A DNA stretch of 64,000 nt from Halieaceae bacterium (GTDB lineage Bacteria; Pseudomonadota; Gammaproteobacteria; Pseudomonadales; Halieaceae). Positions within the stretch are counted from its first letter, which is position 1; every line of letters starts with the position of its first letter. Under the pieces are notes generated by a model. The model was given only the letters and a program-made list of their open reading frames with translations, searched no databases and was not told the origin of the DNA. Location of the stretch: the NCBI GenBank assembly GCA_028280635.1, contig JANQLM010000043.1, positions 62,001 to 126,000 of the forward strand, given 5' to 3'. Positions 13,039-19,097 of the stretch are shown here, piece after piece. The position numbers and the translations under genes were made by a program.

Positions 13039-13275
13039 GAGCGTAGACGCGATGCACGAGAGCTGGCGCGCAAGAAACGCTGGGCGTGGACCACGGAATC
13101 GTCGCGACAATTTATCCCTCAAGGTCGTGCCGATAACGAGCGAAAACAAAAAAGCCGAGTGGTAAGCCAATCTTTGCACAAATAAAAACGAGCCAAGTCC
13201 TCCAAGTGCTTGTATAGAAGCAGGTTTTCGGGAGAATAAATCTTGGAATCCCTACATACCGAGACGAGGAGAAAA

Positions 13276-13338
13276 ATGAACCCCGTCCATTTATTTAGCT
13301 GTTATGGGTCTCTTGCGAAGCTATGTCCTCTGATTTAG
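13276..13338 (+). CDS. Candidate short leader ORF spanning the left recombination core and overlapping the first cassette gene
   Basis: GAGGAGAAAA-ATG then MNPVHLFSCYGSLAKLCPLI-stop; crosses GTTATGG (13301-13307) and overlaps ATG 13323 by 16 nt. Confidence 0.45.
   Translation: MNPVHLFSCYGSLAKLCPLI
13301..13307 (+). other. Candidate left recombination core (attI-like or attC R')
   Basis: GTTATGG fits GTTRNNN-type cores seen at the other attC sites; lies just before the first cassette ORF. Confidence 0.45.
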
Positions 13339-13673
13339 CCAAGACATGGATCGAGTACCACGCCGAGAGGGACGAGGCCTTGTTCTGGGCCTTCGAGAAG
13401 CTAAATGAGCTATGCCAGGATCAACCAGAAGACGCATGGAGTATAGTCTTGGAAATATCAGAACTAACTGATGATCCGAGGGTACTCTCGAATCTGGCGG
13501 CAGGCCCCCTCGAAGATATACTTACCAAACACGGCCACGATTTTATTGATCGCTTCGAGATACACACTCGCCAAAATCCCGGGTTCGTTCCAGTTGCAAA
13601 GGGTGTATGGATCAGCGGCGCGCCTAAAGACATCGAAGAGAGGGTGCATGAAGTACAAGGACGGTACTCATAA
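13323..13673 (+). CDS. Cassette C1: small protein, DUF6869-like (family assigned from memory)
   Basis: 116 aa; ..LSNLAAGPLEDILTKHGHDFIDRFE..; followed by an attC. Confidence 0.65.
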   Translation: MSSDLAKTWIEYHAERDEALFWAFEKLNELCQDQPEDAWSIVLEISELTDDPRVLSNLAAGPLEDILTKHGHDFIDRFEIHTRQNPGFVPVAKGVWISGAPKDIEERVHEVQGRYS

Positions 13674-13754
13674 CAAGGCAATGCTGTCGCTGCGCTGGGA
13701 CACCCAACCTTCCGCTGCGCTCCAGGTCGGGCGCCCCAGCTTGCGGCGTTAAGT
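13669..13754 (+). repeat. attC site a
   Basis: CATAACAAGGCAATGCTGTCGCTGCGCTGGGACACCCAACCTTCCGCTGCGCTCCAGGTCGGGCGCCCCAGCTTGCGGCGTTAAGT. Confidence 0.9.
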
Positions 13755-13762
13755 GCTGTAGC

Positions 13763-14461
13763 GTGCAGAGTCACATACCCGAAATTCTCAGGAACCAATT
13801 TAGATTCCTAGTATTTAGACGAATTTCCCCTGATATTCGGAACCACTTTCCCGAATATTTGACGTATGTTGTTCTCGTTTCACTGGCTGCAGGCGTAGGA
13901 CGGTATTGGGACCACTTAGATGCCGAGCCATGGCAGTACTTCGGCGTGGGATCACTCGCTTACATTTTCGTTTTGTCGGCCTTCCTTTATCTGATTGTTC
14001 TGCCCCTTAGGCCGAACCGTTGGAGTTACAGATCCGTCTTGATTTTCGTCGGCCTAACCTCCTTGCCAGCAATCCTCTATGCAGTGCCTGTCGAGCGTTT
14101 CATGGACATCGTCGCTGCCCAGAATGCCAACGCGCTGTTCCTGGCGCTAATCGCTGTATGGCGCGTGGCGCTTTACACCAATTATCTTAGAAGCACAGCA
14201 AGCCTCAGAGGCGTGGAAGTCTTAGTATCTTTACTCCTTCCGCTATCTCTAATAGTCGTGACACTGAGCCTGCTAAATTTGGAACACGCGGTGTTTCAAA
14301 TTATGGCCGGAAATCCTGTAGCCCCAACGGCGGCAGATTTGTCGTACTTCGTTGTACTGTTGCTAAGCGTCTTGGCCTACTTCACGCTCCCAGTTACTCT
14401 GGGCCTGTATTTGTACGTAATTTATAGAAAGTGGAAGAGTTCCAGTGATAATCGCAATTAA
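13763..14461 (+). CDS. Cassette C2: multi-pass membrane protein
   Basis: GTG start 9 bp after attC; multiple hydrophobic segments; stop TAA lies inside the next R''. Confidence 0.7.
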   Translation: MQSHIPEILRNQFRFLVFRRISPDIRNHFPEYLTYVVLVSLAAGVGRYWDHLDAEPWQYFGVGSLAYIFVLSAFLYLIVLPLRPNRWSYRSVLIFVGLTSLPAILYAVPVERFMDIVAAQNANALFLALIAVWRVALYTNYLRSTASLRGVEVLVSLLLPLSLIVVTLSLLNLEHAVFQIMAGNPVAPTAADLSYFVVLLLSVLAYFTLPVTLGLYLYVIYRKWKSSSDNRN

Positions 14462-14605
14462 CAAGACCAGGCAGTTCGCTCCCTTCGGTCGCCGAATTCC
14501 GGGGACAGTTTACTTAACTGCCGAACATAGCGTTTCGCGCCGTTTTTTTGAGCTTGAGTTAAGTGAACTGTCCCCAGAACTGCAGAACTCTTCGCGGCGT
14601 TATAT
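14457..14605 (+). repeat. attC site b, interrupted by palindromic element copy 1
   Basis: R'' AATTAACAAG at left, R' GTTATAT (14599-14605) at right; removing the 88-bp element leaves ~61 bp. Confidence 0.7.
14494..14581. mobile_element. Palindromic MITE/REP-like element copy 1
   Basis: GAATTCCGGGGACAGTTTACTTAACT...GAGTTAAGTGAACTGTCCCCAGAACT; ends are imperfect inverted repeats. Confidence 0.75.
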
Positions 14606-14628
14606 GCCCTTAATGAGTACCTAGCTAG

Positions 14629-15177
14629 ATGAATTGGATGGAATTTACAGAAAAAATAGTAGGTCATGTATCTTGGCCTATAGCCATATTCTCCACAGCG
14701 GTACTTTTTAGGAGTGAAATTCGCGGATTCGTCCGGAGAATACGCACAGCCAAGTACAAAGATATGGAGCTTAATCTTGGCCATGAAATTCAGTCTGTGA
14801 AACAAGAGGCCGAAGATGCTGGAATCACCATTTACTACCCTGATGCTGCCTTCCCTCCAGATACTGTAAGTAGCATCGAGTCTGAGCCAGAGTGGGCAAT
14901 CATTAAGTCATGGCAAGAGATCGAGTCTGTTTTGACTACTCTCTATAGACAAGCAACGGGTAGTGAAGAGAAACGTGAATCTATACCTGAAATTATCAAT
15001 ATTTTGGCCCAGAAAGGCATGATTCAAAGGGATTTAGCCGATTTAGTGGCAAAGATTCGAGAAGTCCGAAACAAAATAGTCCATGTTTCTGATTCCGAAC
15101 TTACCCGGGGGGAGGCCCTAGAATGGCTGGGGATATCAAAGAGCGTAAAAGATAGATTGGAGCAAAGGCTCGTATGA
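14629..15177 (+). CDS. Cassette C3: N-terminal TM protein with C-terminal HEPN-like (RNxxxH) segment
   Basis: 182 aa; TM near N-terminus; ..LVAKIREVRNKIVHVSDSELTRGEALEWL.. Confidence 0.65.
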   Translation: MNWMEFTEKIVGHVSWPIAIFSTAVLFRSEIRGFVRRIRTAKYKDMELNLGHEIQSVKQEAEDAGITIYYPDAAFPPDTVSSIESEPEWAIIKSWQEIESVLTTLYRQATGSEEKRESIPEIINILAQKGMIQRDLADLVAKIREVRNKIVHVSDSELTRGEALEWLGISKSVKDRLEQRLV

Positions 15178-15203
15178 TCTCTAAGTTACCGGCATATAAC
15201 AAC

Positions 15204-15290
15204 GAATTCGGGGGACAGTTTACTCAACTGCCGAACATAGCGGGTCGCGCCGTTTTTTAAGCTTGAGTTAAGTGAACTGTCCCCGGAACT
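15204..15290. mobile_element. Palindromic MITE/REP-like element copy 2
   Basis: GAATTCGGGGGACAGTTTACTCAACTGCCGAACATAGCGG...TTGAGTTAAGTGAACTGTCCCCGGAACT; left edge abuts CATATAACAAC (R''-like). Confidence 0.75.
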
Positions 15291-15697
15291 CGCAGGACAA
15301 TTCTGGTCGTTTTCCGCCAAATGCTTACGAACTTGCTACATCTGACTGGTACTACAATTTCGATGACCATAGATGTCCCCATGATTCTTGGCTAGAGGAG
15401 CTTTCCATTAGAGAATCGGCGACAGGGGAGCGCAATGAGATCCGTTCGACAGAGATGTCTATAAGGCTCCTCGGCGCATATCACGACGGATTCATCGAGC
15501 TGCGATACGGTAAAGTAAGTTCCTACAGGCTCAAAGGTGCATTTATCTCTGACGGCCACTCTGACTGGCGTTATGACGAGTTCCGGCTCACGAATGACGG
15601 CCGCCTAATTCATGAGATTGAGTGGTGTGGTTTCGAAGATACAGCAGTTATGGAAATTGTTTCGAGGGATGTCCAGTTCTCATGGCTACCAAAGTAA
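15272..15697 (+). CDS. Cassette C4: hypothetical protein whose ORF begins inside element copy 2
   Basis: 141 aa from GTG inside the repeat; body ..SDWYYNFDDHRCPHDSWLEELSIRE..; followed by attC c. Confidence 0.55.
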   Translation: MNCPRNSQDNSGRFPPNAYELATSDWYYNFDDHRCPHDSWLEELSIRESATGERNEIRSTEMSIRLLGAYHDGFIELRYGKVSSYRLKGAFISDGHSDWRYDEFRLTNDGRLIHEIEWCGFEDTAVMEIVSRDVQFSWLPK

Positions 15698-15702
15698 CAA
15701 CG

Positions 15703-15788
15703 CATAACAAGGCAATGCTGTCGCTTCGCTGGGACACCCAACCTTCCGCTGCGCTCCAGGTCGGGCGCCCCAGCTTGCGGCGTTATGT
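15703..15788 (+). repeat. attC site c
   Basis: CATAACAAGGCAATGCTGTCGCTTCGCTGGGACACCCAACC...CAGCTTGCGGCGTTATGT; nearly identical to site a. Confidence 0.9.
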
Positions 15789-15800
15789 TTCTCCACGATC

Positions 15801-16061
15801 ATGATAAATAGCAGTGACAACCCTGTTGCATGGGCTCTCTTGATGCATGAGCTTGAAGATGCGCACGAACACCTGGGCGAGCTCATCGCAGGGATGGCCC
15901 GCGACGGCAGAATCGATGTCGAGGTATATGCAATCGACGTTGCCCATGTTTACGCTCATCTAAATCGCGCGTGGAACACCAGAGACATTCCTGATGAAGT
16001 CACTGACGAACAGTGGGAACAGGGCCGAGCTTTTCCAACAGATTTGGAGCCACTGGCTTGA
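15801..16061 (+). CDS. Cassette C5: small hypothetical protein
   Basis: 86 aa acidic protein 13 bp after attC c. Confidence 0.6.
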   Translation: MINSSDNPVAWALLMHELEDAHEHLGELIAGMARDGRIDVEVYAIDVAHVYAHLNRAWNTRDIPDEVTDEQWEQGRAFPTDLEPLA

Positions 16062-16066
16062 TTACC

Positions 16067-16153
16067 GAATTCGGGGGACAGTTTACTTAACTGCCGAACA
16101 TTGCGTTTCGCGCCGTTTTTTAAGCTTGAGTTAAGTGAACTGTCCCAGGAACT
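16067..16153. mobile_element. Palindromic MITE/REP-like element copy 3
   Basis: GAATTCGGGGGACAGTTTACTTAACTGCCGAACATTGCG...TTGAGTTAAGTGAACTGTCCCAGGAACT; right edge followed by C then GTTATGT (R'). Confidence 0.75.
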
Positions 16154-16174
16154 CGTTATGTGTAAGGACACTGG

Positions 16175-16465
16175 ATGAAGCTCACTAACGACGAAAAAGC
16201 GGTGGTTGCACGTTATCTTGGTTCAGACCCGAGCTGGCGCGGAGTACTGGCCGCCTATTGGCCTTTTCTAGCACCGTCGTTGATCGCAGGAACCTATGGG
16301 GTCTATGACCAAAACCACATTGCATGCTCCATCGGCTTCATCTTGCTAGCTTGTTTCGCCATGTGGTTTTTCTACCACGGAGGCAAGGAGGGCATTTATC
16401 TAAGGTCGGCTCTCGAAAAGTATGAGCAAGAGGTATCTGCACTTGGCGAGCAACCCTACACATAA
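16175..16465 (+). CDS. Cassette C6: small two-TM membrane protein
   Basis: 96 aa with two hydrophobic segments; bounded by R' GTTATGT and attC d. Confidence 0.65.
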   Translation: MKLTNDEKAVVARYLGSDPSWRGVLAAYWPFLAPSLIAGTYGVYDQNHIACSIGFILLACFAMWFFYHGGKEGIYLRSALEKYEQEVSALGEQPYT

Positions 16466-16546
16466 CAAGGTAAGGCTGGCGCTGCGCTGGGACACCCAAC
16501 CTTCCGCTGCGCTCCAGGCCGGGCGCCCCAGCTTGCGGCGTTACAT
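16461..16546 (+). repeat. attC site d
   Basis: CATAACAAGGTAAGGCTGGCGCTGCGCTGGGACACCCAACC...CAGCTTGCGGCGTTACAT. Confidence 0.9.
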
Positions 16547-16552
16547 GGCCTC

Positions 16553-16822
16553 ATGAATCGCGCCCAGGCATACAAGCTCGCCCAAGCGGAGTTGCTTAAA
16601 GTAGAACAGGAAGGCTTCGCCGTTGCTTCTGGAAACATTGGTCCCGGAAACGCCCGCGAAACACGCGATAGCAACGGCACCGTATACGAGGTCGAGTTAT
16701 CCTACACTTACGGCAATACCGAAAGATCTAGAATAGAAGTTACGTGCAAGGTTACGCCAAAGAATTGGTTCCGACATGAGCAGTTAGAGGAGTCCATTAC
16801 GCTATATGCACCGGCCATTTAA
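16553..16822 (+). CDS. Cassette C7: small hypothetical protein
   Basis: 89 aa between two attC sites; stop TAA in next R''. Confidence 0.65.
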   Translation: MNRAQAYKLAQAELLKVEQEGFAVASGNIGPGNARETRDSNGTVYEVELSYTYGNTERSRIEVTCKVTPKNWFRHEQLEESITLYAPAI

Positions 16823-16891
16823 CAAGGCAAGGCTGCAGGGCCGCTCTGCGCCGGGACGGCGTGTCGACCGCCCCAGCTTGAAGCGTTATGT
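16817..16891 (+). repeat. attC site e
   Basis: ATTTAACAAGGCAAGGCTGCAGGGCCGCTCTGCGCCGGGACGGCGTGTCGACCGCCCCAGCTTGAAGCGTTATGT. Confidence 0.9.
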
Positions 16892-16900
16892 GTCCACGCG

Positions 16901-17224: not shown

Positions 17225-17230
17225 CGGACA

Positions 17231-17304
17231 CATAACAAGTCAAGGCTGCAAGGCCGCTTCGCGCCGGGACAGCCTACCGGCTGCCCCAGCTTGAAGCGTT
17301 AGGG
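17231..17304 (+). repeat. attC site f
   Basis: CATAACAAGTCAAGGCTGCAAGGCCGCTTCGCGCCGGGACAGCCTACCGGCTGCCCCAGCTTGAAGCGTTAGGG. Confidence 0.9.
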
Positions 17305-17310
17305 AGCGCG

Positions 17311-17670
17311 ATGGGCGAGCATCTAGAAACGGTTACGCTCTACCGCCCTACTGGACCGGAAGAACTGAAGCTCGTTAAAGACTCTGGATTCAAACGCTGG
17401 CCACCCCGACTGCCTGGTCAACCGTTCTTCTATCCAGTTACAAACGAGCAGTACGCCATCGAAATTGCATCACAGTGGAACGTCAAAGATAGCGGTGTTG
17501 GCTTTGTCACACGTTTTTATGTGAAGCGGGAATTCATGGACCGTTACGAGATACAGACTGTTGGGGCATCACATCACTCTGAATGGTGGGTGCCAGATGC
17601 GGAGTTGGAAGAACTAAACGACAGTATTGTGGGCGACATCGAGGTAATAGGTGAGTATCGCGCATCCTAA
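17311..17670 (+). CDS. Cassette C9: hypothetical protein (resembles proteins often named ADP-ribosylation/crystallin J1)
   Basis: 119 aa; TVTLYRPTGPEELKLVKDSGFKRWPPRLPGQPFFYPVTNEQYAIEIA; bounded by attC f and g. Confidence 0.65.
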   Translation: MGEHLETVTLYRPTGPEELKLVKDSGFKRWPPRLPGQPFFYPVTNEQYAIEIASQWNVKDSGVGFVTRFYVKREFMDRYEIQTVGASHHSEWWVPDAELEELNDSIVGDIEVIGEYRAS

Positions 17671-17724
17671 CAAGCCTGGGCAGCAGGGACGTGCCAACGC
17701 ACGCCCCTGCTCGGGGCGTTAGGT
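17665..17724 (+). repeat. attC site g
   Basis: TCCTAACAAGCCTGGGCAGCAGGGACGTGCCAACGCACGCCCCTGCTCGGGGCGTTAGGT; 60 bp. Confidence 0.88.
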
Positions 17725-17744
17725 GGCGCCGGGAGATAGCAGAA

Positions 17745-18044: not shown

Positions 18045-18050
18045 ACATGT

Positions 18051-18135
18051 CACCCAACAAGGCAAGGCTACCGCTTCGCTGGGACGCCCAACCTTCCGCT
18101 GCGTTCCAGGCTGTGCTGCCTGCCGGCGGCAATAG
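18051..18135 (+). repeat. attC site h (degenerate right end)
   Basis: CACCCAACAAGGCAAGGCTACCGCTTCGCTGGGACGCCCAACCTTCCGCTGCGTTCCAGGC.. matches sites a/c/d, but no intact R'. Confidence 0.65.
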
Positions 18136-18141
18136 CTGTCC

Positions 18142-18588
18142 ATGAGCGTCAGAAGCGCCACTGGGCACGACAAGGGCACTCTAATTGCCCTGCGAAAAGA
18201 ACTGTGGCCCGACGAAGTCGACGAGCACAACGATGAGCTAACCAGGTTCTTCGAAGGACAGCTTTCCCACATTGACCATATCGTTGTGGCCGAATCTGAA
18301 TCCGGAGAAATAATCGGCTTCGCTGAACTGCGGGTTAGGAACTATGCGGAAGGCAGCAATAACTTCGAAGTGCCCTTCCTTGAAGGGTGGTATGTGACGC
18401 CTTCACATCGCAGGAATGGGATTGGGCGAGCCCTAATTGGTGAAGCAGAAGCATGGGCGCGCAGAGGAAGGTATAGTGAACTTGCCAGCGACGTTCTTAT
18501 CAGCAATTCAGAAGCCATATGCGCTCATGCGTCAATTGGTTTCAAAGAGGTAGAGCGCACTGTTAGTTTTCTCAAAAATATCGAGTGA
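18142..18588 (+). CDS. Cassette C11: GNAT acetyltransferase resembling AAC(6')-I aminoglycoside 6'-N-acetyltransferases
   Basis: 148 aa; ALRKELWPDEVDEH..VPFLEGWYVTPSHRRNGIGRALIGEAEAWARRGRYSELASDVLISNSEAICAHASIGFKEVERTVSFLKNI follows the AAC(6')-I signature. Confidence 0.8.
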   Translation: MSVRSATGHDKGTLIALRKELWPDEVDEHNDELTRFFEGQLSHIDHIVVAESESGEIIGFAELRVRNYAEGSNNFEVPFLEGWYVTPSHRRNGIGRALIGEAEAWARRGRYSELASDVLISNSEAICAHASIGFKEVERTVSFLKNIE

Positions 18589-18653
18589 ATAAACCTGACA
18601 GGCCGCTTCCCGCCGGGACAGTCTGCCGACTGTCCCAGCTTGAAGCGTTAGGT
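18586..18653 (+). repeat. attC site i
   Basis: Degenerate R'' (TGAATAAACCTGACAGG) but clear right half: GGGACAGTCTGCCGACTGTCCCAGCTTGAAGCGTTAGGT. Confidence 0.75.
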
Positions 18654-18666
18654 AGCCTATTCGAGT

Positions 18667-19053
18667 ATGACGAAGCACGGCGAGTTCAATTGGATTGAGC
18701 TTCAAACTCACAATACCGACGCGGCGATAAAGTTTTATAAAAAGTCCGCGGGATGGAAATTTCAAGCTGAGACCATGCCCAGCGGTGGCACCTATTGGTT
18801 GGCGATGCTGGGTGAGAAGGTAATCTGCGGCATATGGACCTTAGAAAGCGATGGTGGTGAATCAGCCAAAAACAGATGGGTAGTCTATTTGCACGTAGAT
18901 GACATTGATGACGCTATCGATCAAGCAAAATCTATCGGTGCTGAAATTCTACATGAACCCTGGAATGTCCCGGGAGTTGGTCGCATAGCCATGATACGAG
19001 ATCCAGGTGGCGCAGAAATAGGATGGGTAACTCCCAGTACCCGGGCTACCTAA
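18667..19053 (+). CDS. Cassette C12: VOC (glyoxalase/bleomycin-resistance) family protein
   Basis: 128 aa; FNWIELQTHNTDAAIKFYKKSAGWKF..IAMIRDPGGAEIGWVTP. Confidence 0.88.
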   Translation: MTKHGEFNWIELQTHNTDAAIKFYKKSAGWKFQAETMPSGGTYWLAMLGEKVICGIWTLESDGGESAKNRWVVYLHVDDIDDAIDQAKSIGAEILHEPWNVPGVGRIAMIRDPGGAEIGWVTPSTRAT

Positions 19054-19097
19054 CCGTTAAGTCAATTAGGGCGCTGTGGAGATACTGAATCGCGACA

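Follow-up and report, generated by a model that had tools for sequence, protein, structure and literature searches.

A palindromic, REP-like hairpin concentrated in integron cassette arrays, where it adjoins truncated attC sites

A palindromic element of about 88 bp is concentrated in the integron cassette arrays of the genome under study, where it lies in cassette orientation and next to attC sites that are cut short or lost. The reading that we favour, with modest confidence, is that it is a non-autonomous hairpin of the RAYT type that has become enriched in cassette arrays and stands at rearrangement joints, some of which were probably made via IntI. IntI and RAYT are unrelated enzymes, and each recognises its DNA as a folded single strand, attC sites in the one case and REP-type palindromes in the other. 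When a REP-type hairpin replaces or terminates attC in a lineage, this is a natural test of interference between hairpin-based systems, and it also bears on the loss of array mobility and on the possible origin of new attC-like sites. The observations suggest an encounter between two DNA systems that work through hairpins, in which each has altered the other. We found no published report of REP or RAYT elements within cassette arrays in a literature search that reached few subscription journals.

The window, which is the whole 64-kb stretch of DNA that was analysed, holds three copies of the element:

14494-14590, plus strand: c1, an 88-bp core (14494-14581) followed by a short end repeat, GCAGAACTC, to 14590 (BLAST, repeat search and sequence reading)
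15203-15292, plus strand: c2, CGAATTC...GAACTCG (BLAST and repeat search)
16066-16155, plus strand: c3, CGAATTC...GAACTCG, the final G of which doubles as the G of the R' core (BLAST and repeat search)

The initial annotation had described three palindromic copies of ~88 bp that end in imperfect inverted repeats, and this description was borne out. The cores (14494-14581, 15204-15290 and 16067-16153) are 92-94% identical over 87-88 bp by BLAST and repeat search, with E-values of 2e-29 or better for their matches within the host genome. In the repeat search, their arms are inverted repeats of 23-30 nt with a complementarity of 83-91%. As had also been claimed, neither the repeat search nor reading of the sequence revealed a further copy within the 64-kb window. 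The element is thus a hairpin-forming palindrome present in several copies, as seen from its folds and from about 24 family loci, and like a MITE it has terminal inverted repeats without a gene. The two flanks of the element do not resemble each other and show no consistent target-site duplication, and no fixed target sequence was recognised at its copies.

The copies in the window lie in an array with the following sites:

13253-13306, plus strand: left end of the array, attI-like; the attI next to intI on contig C244 of the sister species G002 has this same sequence
13666-13758, 15700-15792, 16458-16550, 16815-16895, 17228-17308 and 17663-17728, plus strand: six strong attC sites (covariance model R1)
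18050-18141 (weak) and 18574-18657, plus strand: weaker attC sites (covariance model R1)

Model R1 was built from the six strong attCs of this array. Over the 4.48-Mb host genome it returned the attCs of the window, a few on contigs C28, C108, C7 and C80, and a marginal one on C71. A TIGR02249 search found no integron integrase above the NCBIfam cut-off in the host genome, and we therefore refer to the arrays as IntI-less. With at least two attC sites and no intI nearby, the window array is a CALIN. It resembles CALINs and delta-attI-type cassettes in the absence of intI and in the replacement of attC at a cassette end (PMC9024848, PMC12901181), but here the replacing sequence is a REP-like hairpin and the array starts with the genus's own attI copy. 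Related attI-like copies head other intI-less arrays of the host genome (G000) and of G002, at L035 8600-8660, L037 6550-6605, L112 3100-3040 (minus strand) and L149 90-150 (minus strand). Separately, at 19045-19062 of the window a single C separates the R'' of the last cassette from a GTTAAGT core (GGCTACCTAAC-C-GTTAAGT), which amounts to an attC minus its entire hairpin.

Family members have ends of the form GAATTCnGGGGACAGTTTACTTAA. In the host genome, 35 places differ by at most 2 mismatches from GGGACAGTTTACTTAA, compared with 0 for the reversed control, and merging of neighbouring halves gives about 24 loci. Cassette arrays, which together cover ~16.9 kb, contain or border eight of the 24, against an expectation of 0.09 (binomial P ~3e-14), the locus count and the array lengths being dependent on our own grouping. 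The four most similar copies are among these eight. All eight array copies are in cassette orientation (two-sided P 0.008), and so is a ninth array copy found in G002. Both P values assume independence, an assumption that duplication could break, and the array events may not be independent, a single draft genome being the source of almost every array copy. GC skew was weak when checked for a replication-strand account of copy orientation. Scoring copies by their location at attC, as the initial annotation had proposed, gives a divided picture: most of the wider family is found at a distance from attC, in agreement with the random distribution that the initial annotation had named as refuting, but this does not apply to the 88-bp copies, which are the youngest.

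Each cassette begins with a sequence complementary to its own R'' (8-10/10 in intact cassettes, mean 6.4 in mismatched pairs), so that the boxes flanking the element can be assigned to cassettes independently. Around c1-c3 we found:

14453-14493, plus strand: R'' CGCAATTAAC (14453-14462) and the left part of the cassette 2 attC, cut at GGTCGCC; complementary to the cassette 2 start at 8/10
14591-14608, plus strand: right remnant of an attC, TTCGCGGC, and R' / cassette 3 start (GTTATATGCC from 14599), from sequence reading; the start matches its own R'' at 10/10
15191-15202, plus strand: R'' of cassette 3, GGCATATAAC, and 2 nt directly before c2; complementary to the cassette 3 start at 10/10
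15293-15697, plus strand: fragment of the cassette 4 gene, its N-terminus lost at the element; no cassette start (best match 6/10)
16155-16164, plus strand: R' / cassette 6 start, GTTATGTGTA, flush with c3; complementary to the cassette 6 R'' at 10/10

To the left of c1 stand R'' and ~31 nt of attC; to its right are the final 8 nt of L' and then R', and TTCGCGGC-GTTATATG is all that remains of an attC there. Its left flank agrees with ~10 intact attCs of relatives as far as GGTCGCC; these continue beyond that point, for example as GGACGCGCTTACAGCGC...GCTGCTGGCGGCGTTA, and c1 has no such centre. As the L'/L'' complementarity score was not discriminating, we claim for c1 only the missing centre and not chimerism. 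Copy c2 joins the R'' of cassette 3 to the interior of the cassette 4 gene, of which a Rhizobium homologue is ~30 residues longer at the N-terminus. The left edge of c3 follows the cassette 5 ORF, 4 nt past its stop codon, and no attC is recognisable there; on its right the complete cassette 6 begins at once, the joint falling precisely on the IntI crossover G|TT. Each copy had been annotated as placed in or against an attC core. This location holds for c1-c3, but 'placed in' implies an insertion, and the two flanks of a copy are not halves of one site. R'/R'' pairing was not restored in bottom-strand folds of c1-c3 with their flanks. These sites therefore probably work poorly as attC, and the cassettes next to them are probably locked.

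Similar joints are seen on other contigs. The first copy on C7 disrupts a glyoxalase gene, and a cassette start, G|CTATATGC, adjoins it exactly; the two-cassette unit that begins there ends in R''-AATG-element. This glyoxalase gene is uninterrupted in G002, with an attI-like site and cassettes behind it, indicating that the C7 state in G000 is derived. The arrays on C28 and C80 end in an attC that is cut short, followed by the element and then by chromosomal genes. An array of G002 that lies past a CoA-ligase gene, the same gene as on C28, also ends in a truncated attC and the element; it spans contigs C23 and C59, which overlap by ~100 bp. Behind this array (L099 2866-3120 of G002) we observed part of the CoA-ligase 3' end for a second time, together with a remnant that resembles attI, which looks as though a duplication of the locus had enclosed the array. 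The copy on C108 falls towards the 3' end of a cassette gene, with an attC ~60 bp further on, and is the only one that looks like a plain insertion; the interrupted gene gave no plasmid homologue. Among other palindrome-bearing loci, model R1 was positive only in G002, and no other convincing junction of attC and element emerged when 394 genomes of the order were scanned.

The initial annotation had suggested folded attC hairpins as the preferred target. A RAYT or another Y1 enzyme would then prefer folded single-stranded attC hairpins, and deletions would later have trimmed the sites. The concentration in arrays, the uniform orientation and the left flanks, which often fall within an attC, are in line with this. 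However, none of the array copies is a clean insertion that splits an intact attC in two, the flanks of 7 of the 8 are not two halves of one site, and the breakpoints vary from 2 to ~46 nt after R''. The missing centre of c1, the position of the C108 copy in a cassette gene outside attC and the many family copies far from attC also count against targeting, which we consider unlikely. The known mobile elements that target attC, namely IS1111-attC elements and group IIC-attC introns, insert at a fixed position. The present element resembles them in its location at attC sites and its fixed orientation, but it has no gene of its own, its breakpoints are variable and it does not occupy a fixed place between the two halves of one site.

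The exact joints could alternatively mean that IntI uses the element itself. Its edge or folded hairpin would act as an attC- or attG-like site against which whole cassettes are inserted, in some cases with the element as attC stem, and a REP-like hairpin would thereby have been drafted into the integron. Two independent exact joints, G|TT at c3 and G|CT on C7, have complete cassettes behind them, two left joints fall just past R'' (at c2 and on C7 near 2126), and IntI is known to recombine at attG and delta-attI sites (PMC12901181). Against this, no single copy combines R'' with a flush R', or has both cognate R''/R' boxes and an attC-like fold, R' and R'' are unpaired in the bottom strand, and there is no intI in the host genome. 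We regard such a use of the element as distinctly unlikely.

Very unlikely, in our view, is plain repeat-mediated rearrangement in dispensable, insertion-tolerant arrays, in which RecA recombination made the joints and there is no special link to attC. Homologous recombination of repeats that are 92-94% identical can yield mismatched flanks, and older family copies cluster on C53, away from attC, but the uniform orientation and the exact G|TT joints would be left unexplained.

In the reading that we favour, a non-autonomous MITE/REP-like hairpin would have been moved by a RAYT since gone from the host genome, and its recent 88-bp subfamily would have gathered in the IntI-less arrays in a single orientation relative to the cassettes. 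As the likeliest route we infer two steps, a Y1-like one in which the element was inserted, or a strand transferred, on single-stranded DNA of one polarity, and then recombination between copies or at hairpins, by which the neighbouring attC was removed. The copies now stand at joints where the attC hairpin is lost or cut on one side at least, and the element links it to non-matching DNA, be it another attC half, the interior of a gene or the chromosome at the array end. The uniform orientation fits single-strand chemistry, as known from Y1 enzymes and from IntI acting on the attC bottom strand (PMC8266576). Since the TnpA-REP of E. coli cleaves and recombines REP DNA in vitro (PMC8266576), a RAYT could by itself produce joints of this kind; the simpler alternative is homologous recombination between copies. 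For c3 and the first C7 copy, the exact crossover joints make an IntI event next to the element the best explanation, and such an event probably put a cassette against the element edge at the crossover. Several points count against the favoured reading: the host genome has no RAYT, almost all array copies derive from a single draft genome, no copy yielded an empty/filled pair, neither a target-site duplication nor a fixed target was recognised, and the element is without the GTAG foot of canonical REPs.

The proposed kinship to RAYT-associated palindromes gained support from related genomes. In a member of the same taxonomic family (G092, contig C217) inverted GGGGACAGTTTACTTAATTC ends enclose an intact RAYT (NF047646; score 81.2 bits, cut-off 80), and in another (G021, contig C485) a RAYT fragment lies between GAATTCCGGGGACAG... 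and ...CTGTCCCCAGAATTC. A RAYT with matching flanking palindromes, as the initial annotation had proposed to look for, is thus found in these two genomes and not in the host, which has no gene for a Y1 transposase or RAYT. The RAYT genes of the two sister species that have one (G001 contig C52 and G002 contig C219) are without flanking copies of the element palindrome. In canonical REPs the 5' foot of the hairpin bears the tetranucleotide GTAG or GTGG (PMC6006769), which was absent when both strands of the element were read. We therefore regard the element as RAYT-associated but not as a canonical REP (PMC6006769, PMC8266576). It resembles the REP, REPIN and BIME sequences of RAYTs (Y1 HUH enzymes, kin of IS200/IS605) as a short, gene-less palindrome in several copies, with ends that flank RAYT in relatives. 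It differs from them, besides the foot, in its 88-bp length, two long arms, low copy number, concentration in cassette arrays and host without RAYT.

Searches beyond these genomes returned little: Rfam gave no match at gathering scores, the element was found in no plasmids or phages, and an exact-pattern scan of 85,488 genomes returned one locus only, a short match beside an unrelated gene. A published GGGGACAG in a MITE-related paper occurs merely in a PCR primer and is not relevant. A terminator role was also considered and dropped, the predictor calling no terminator at any copy.

Contigs C22 (three copies), C7 (two), C108 and C80 (cut short) carry the 88-bp form, with its GAATTC...GAACTC ends, and more degenerate relatives occur elsewhere; outside c1-c3, four further copies in the host genome are complete or almost so, and several others are degenerate. 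About five older, degenerate copies, nearly all in one orientation, were observed in a region without attC (C53:65000-92000; L005, L033). Short near-perfect hairpins of ~45-50 bp lie between chromosomal genes on C105, C8, C51 and C68, and at least two family hairpins are apparently at matching sites in sister species (C105 and G001:C6; C23 and G003:C100). Unlike the 88-bp array copies, the short chromosomal hairpins look inherited. Short perfect hairpins of the family were noted between chromosomal genes at L024 4521, L025 3579, L027 3630, L110 2890 and L111 3184.
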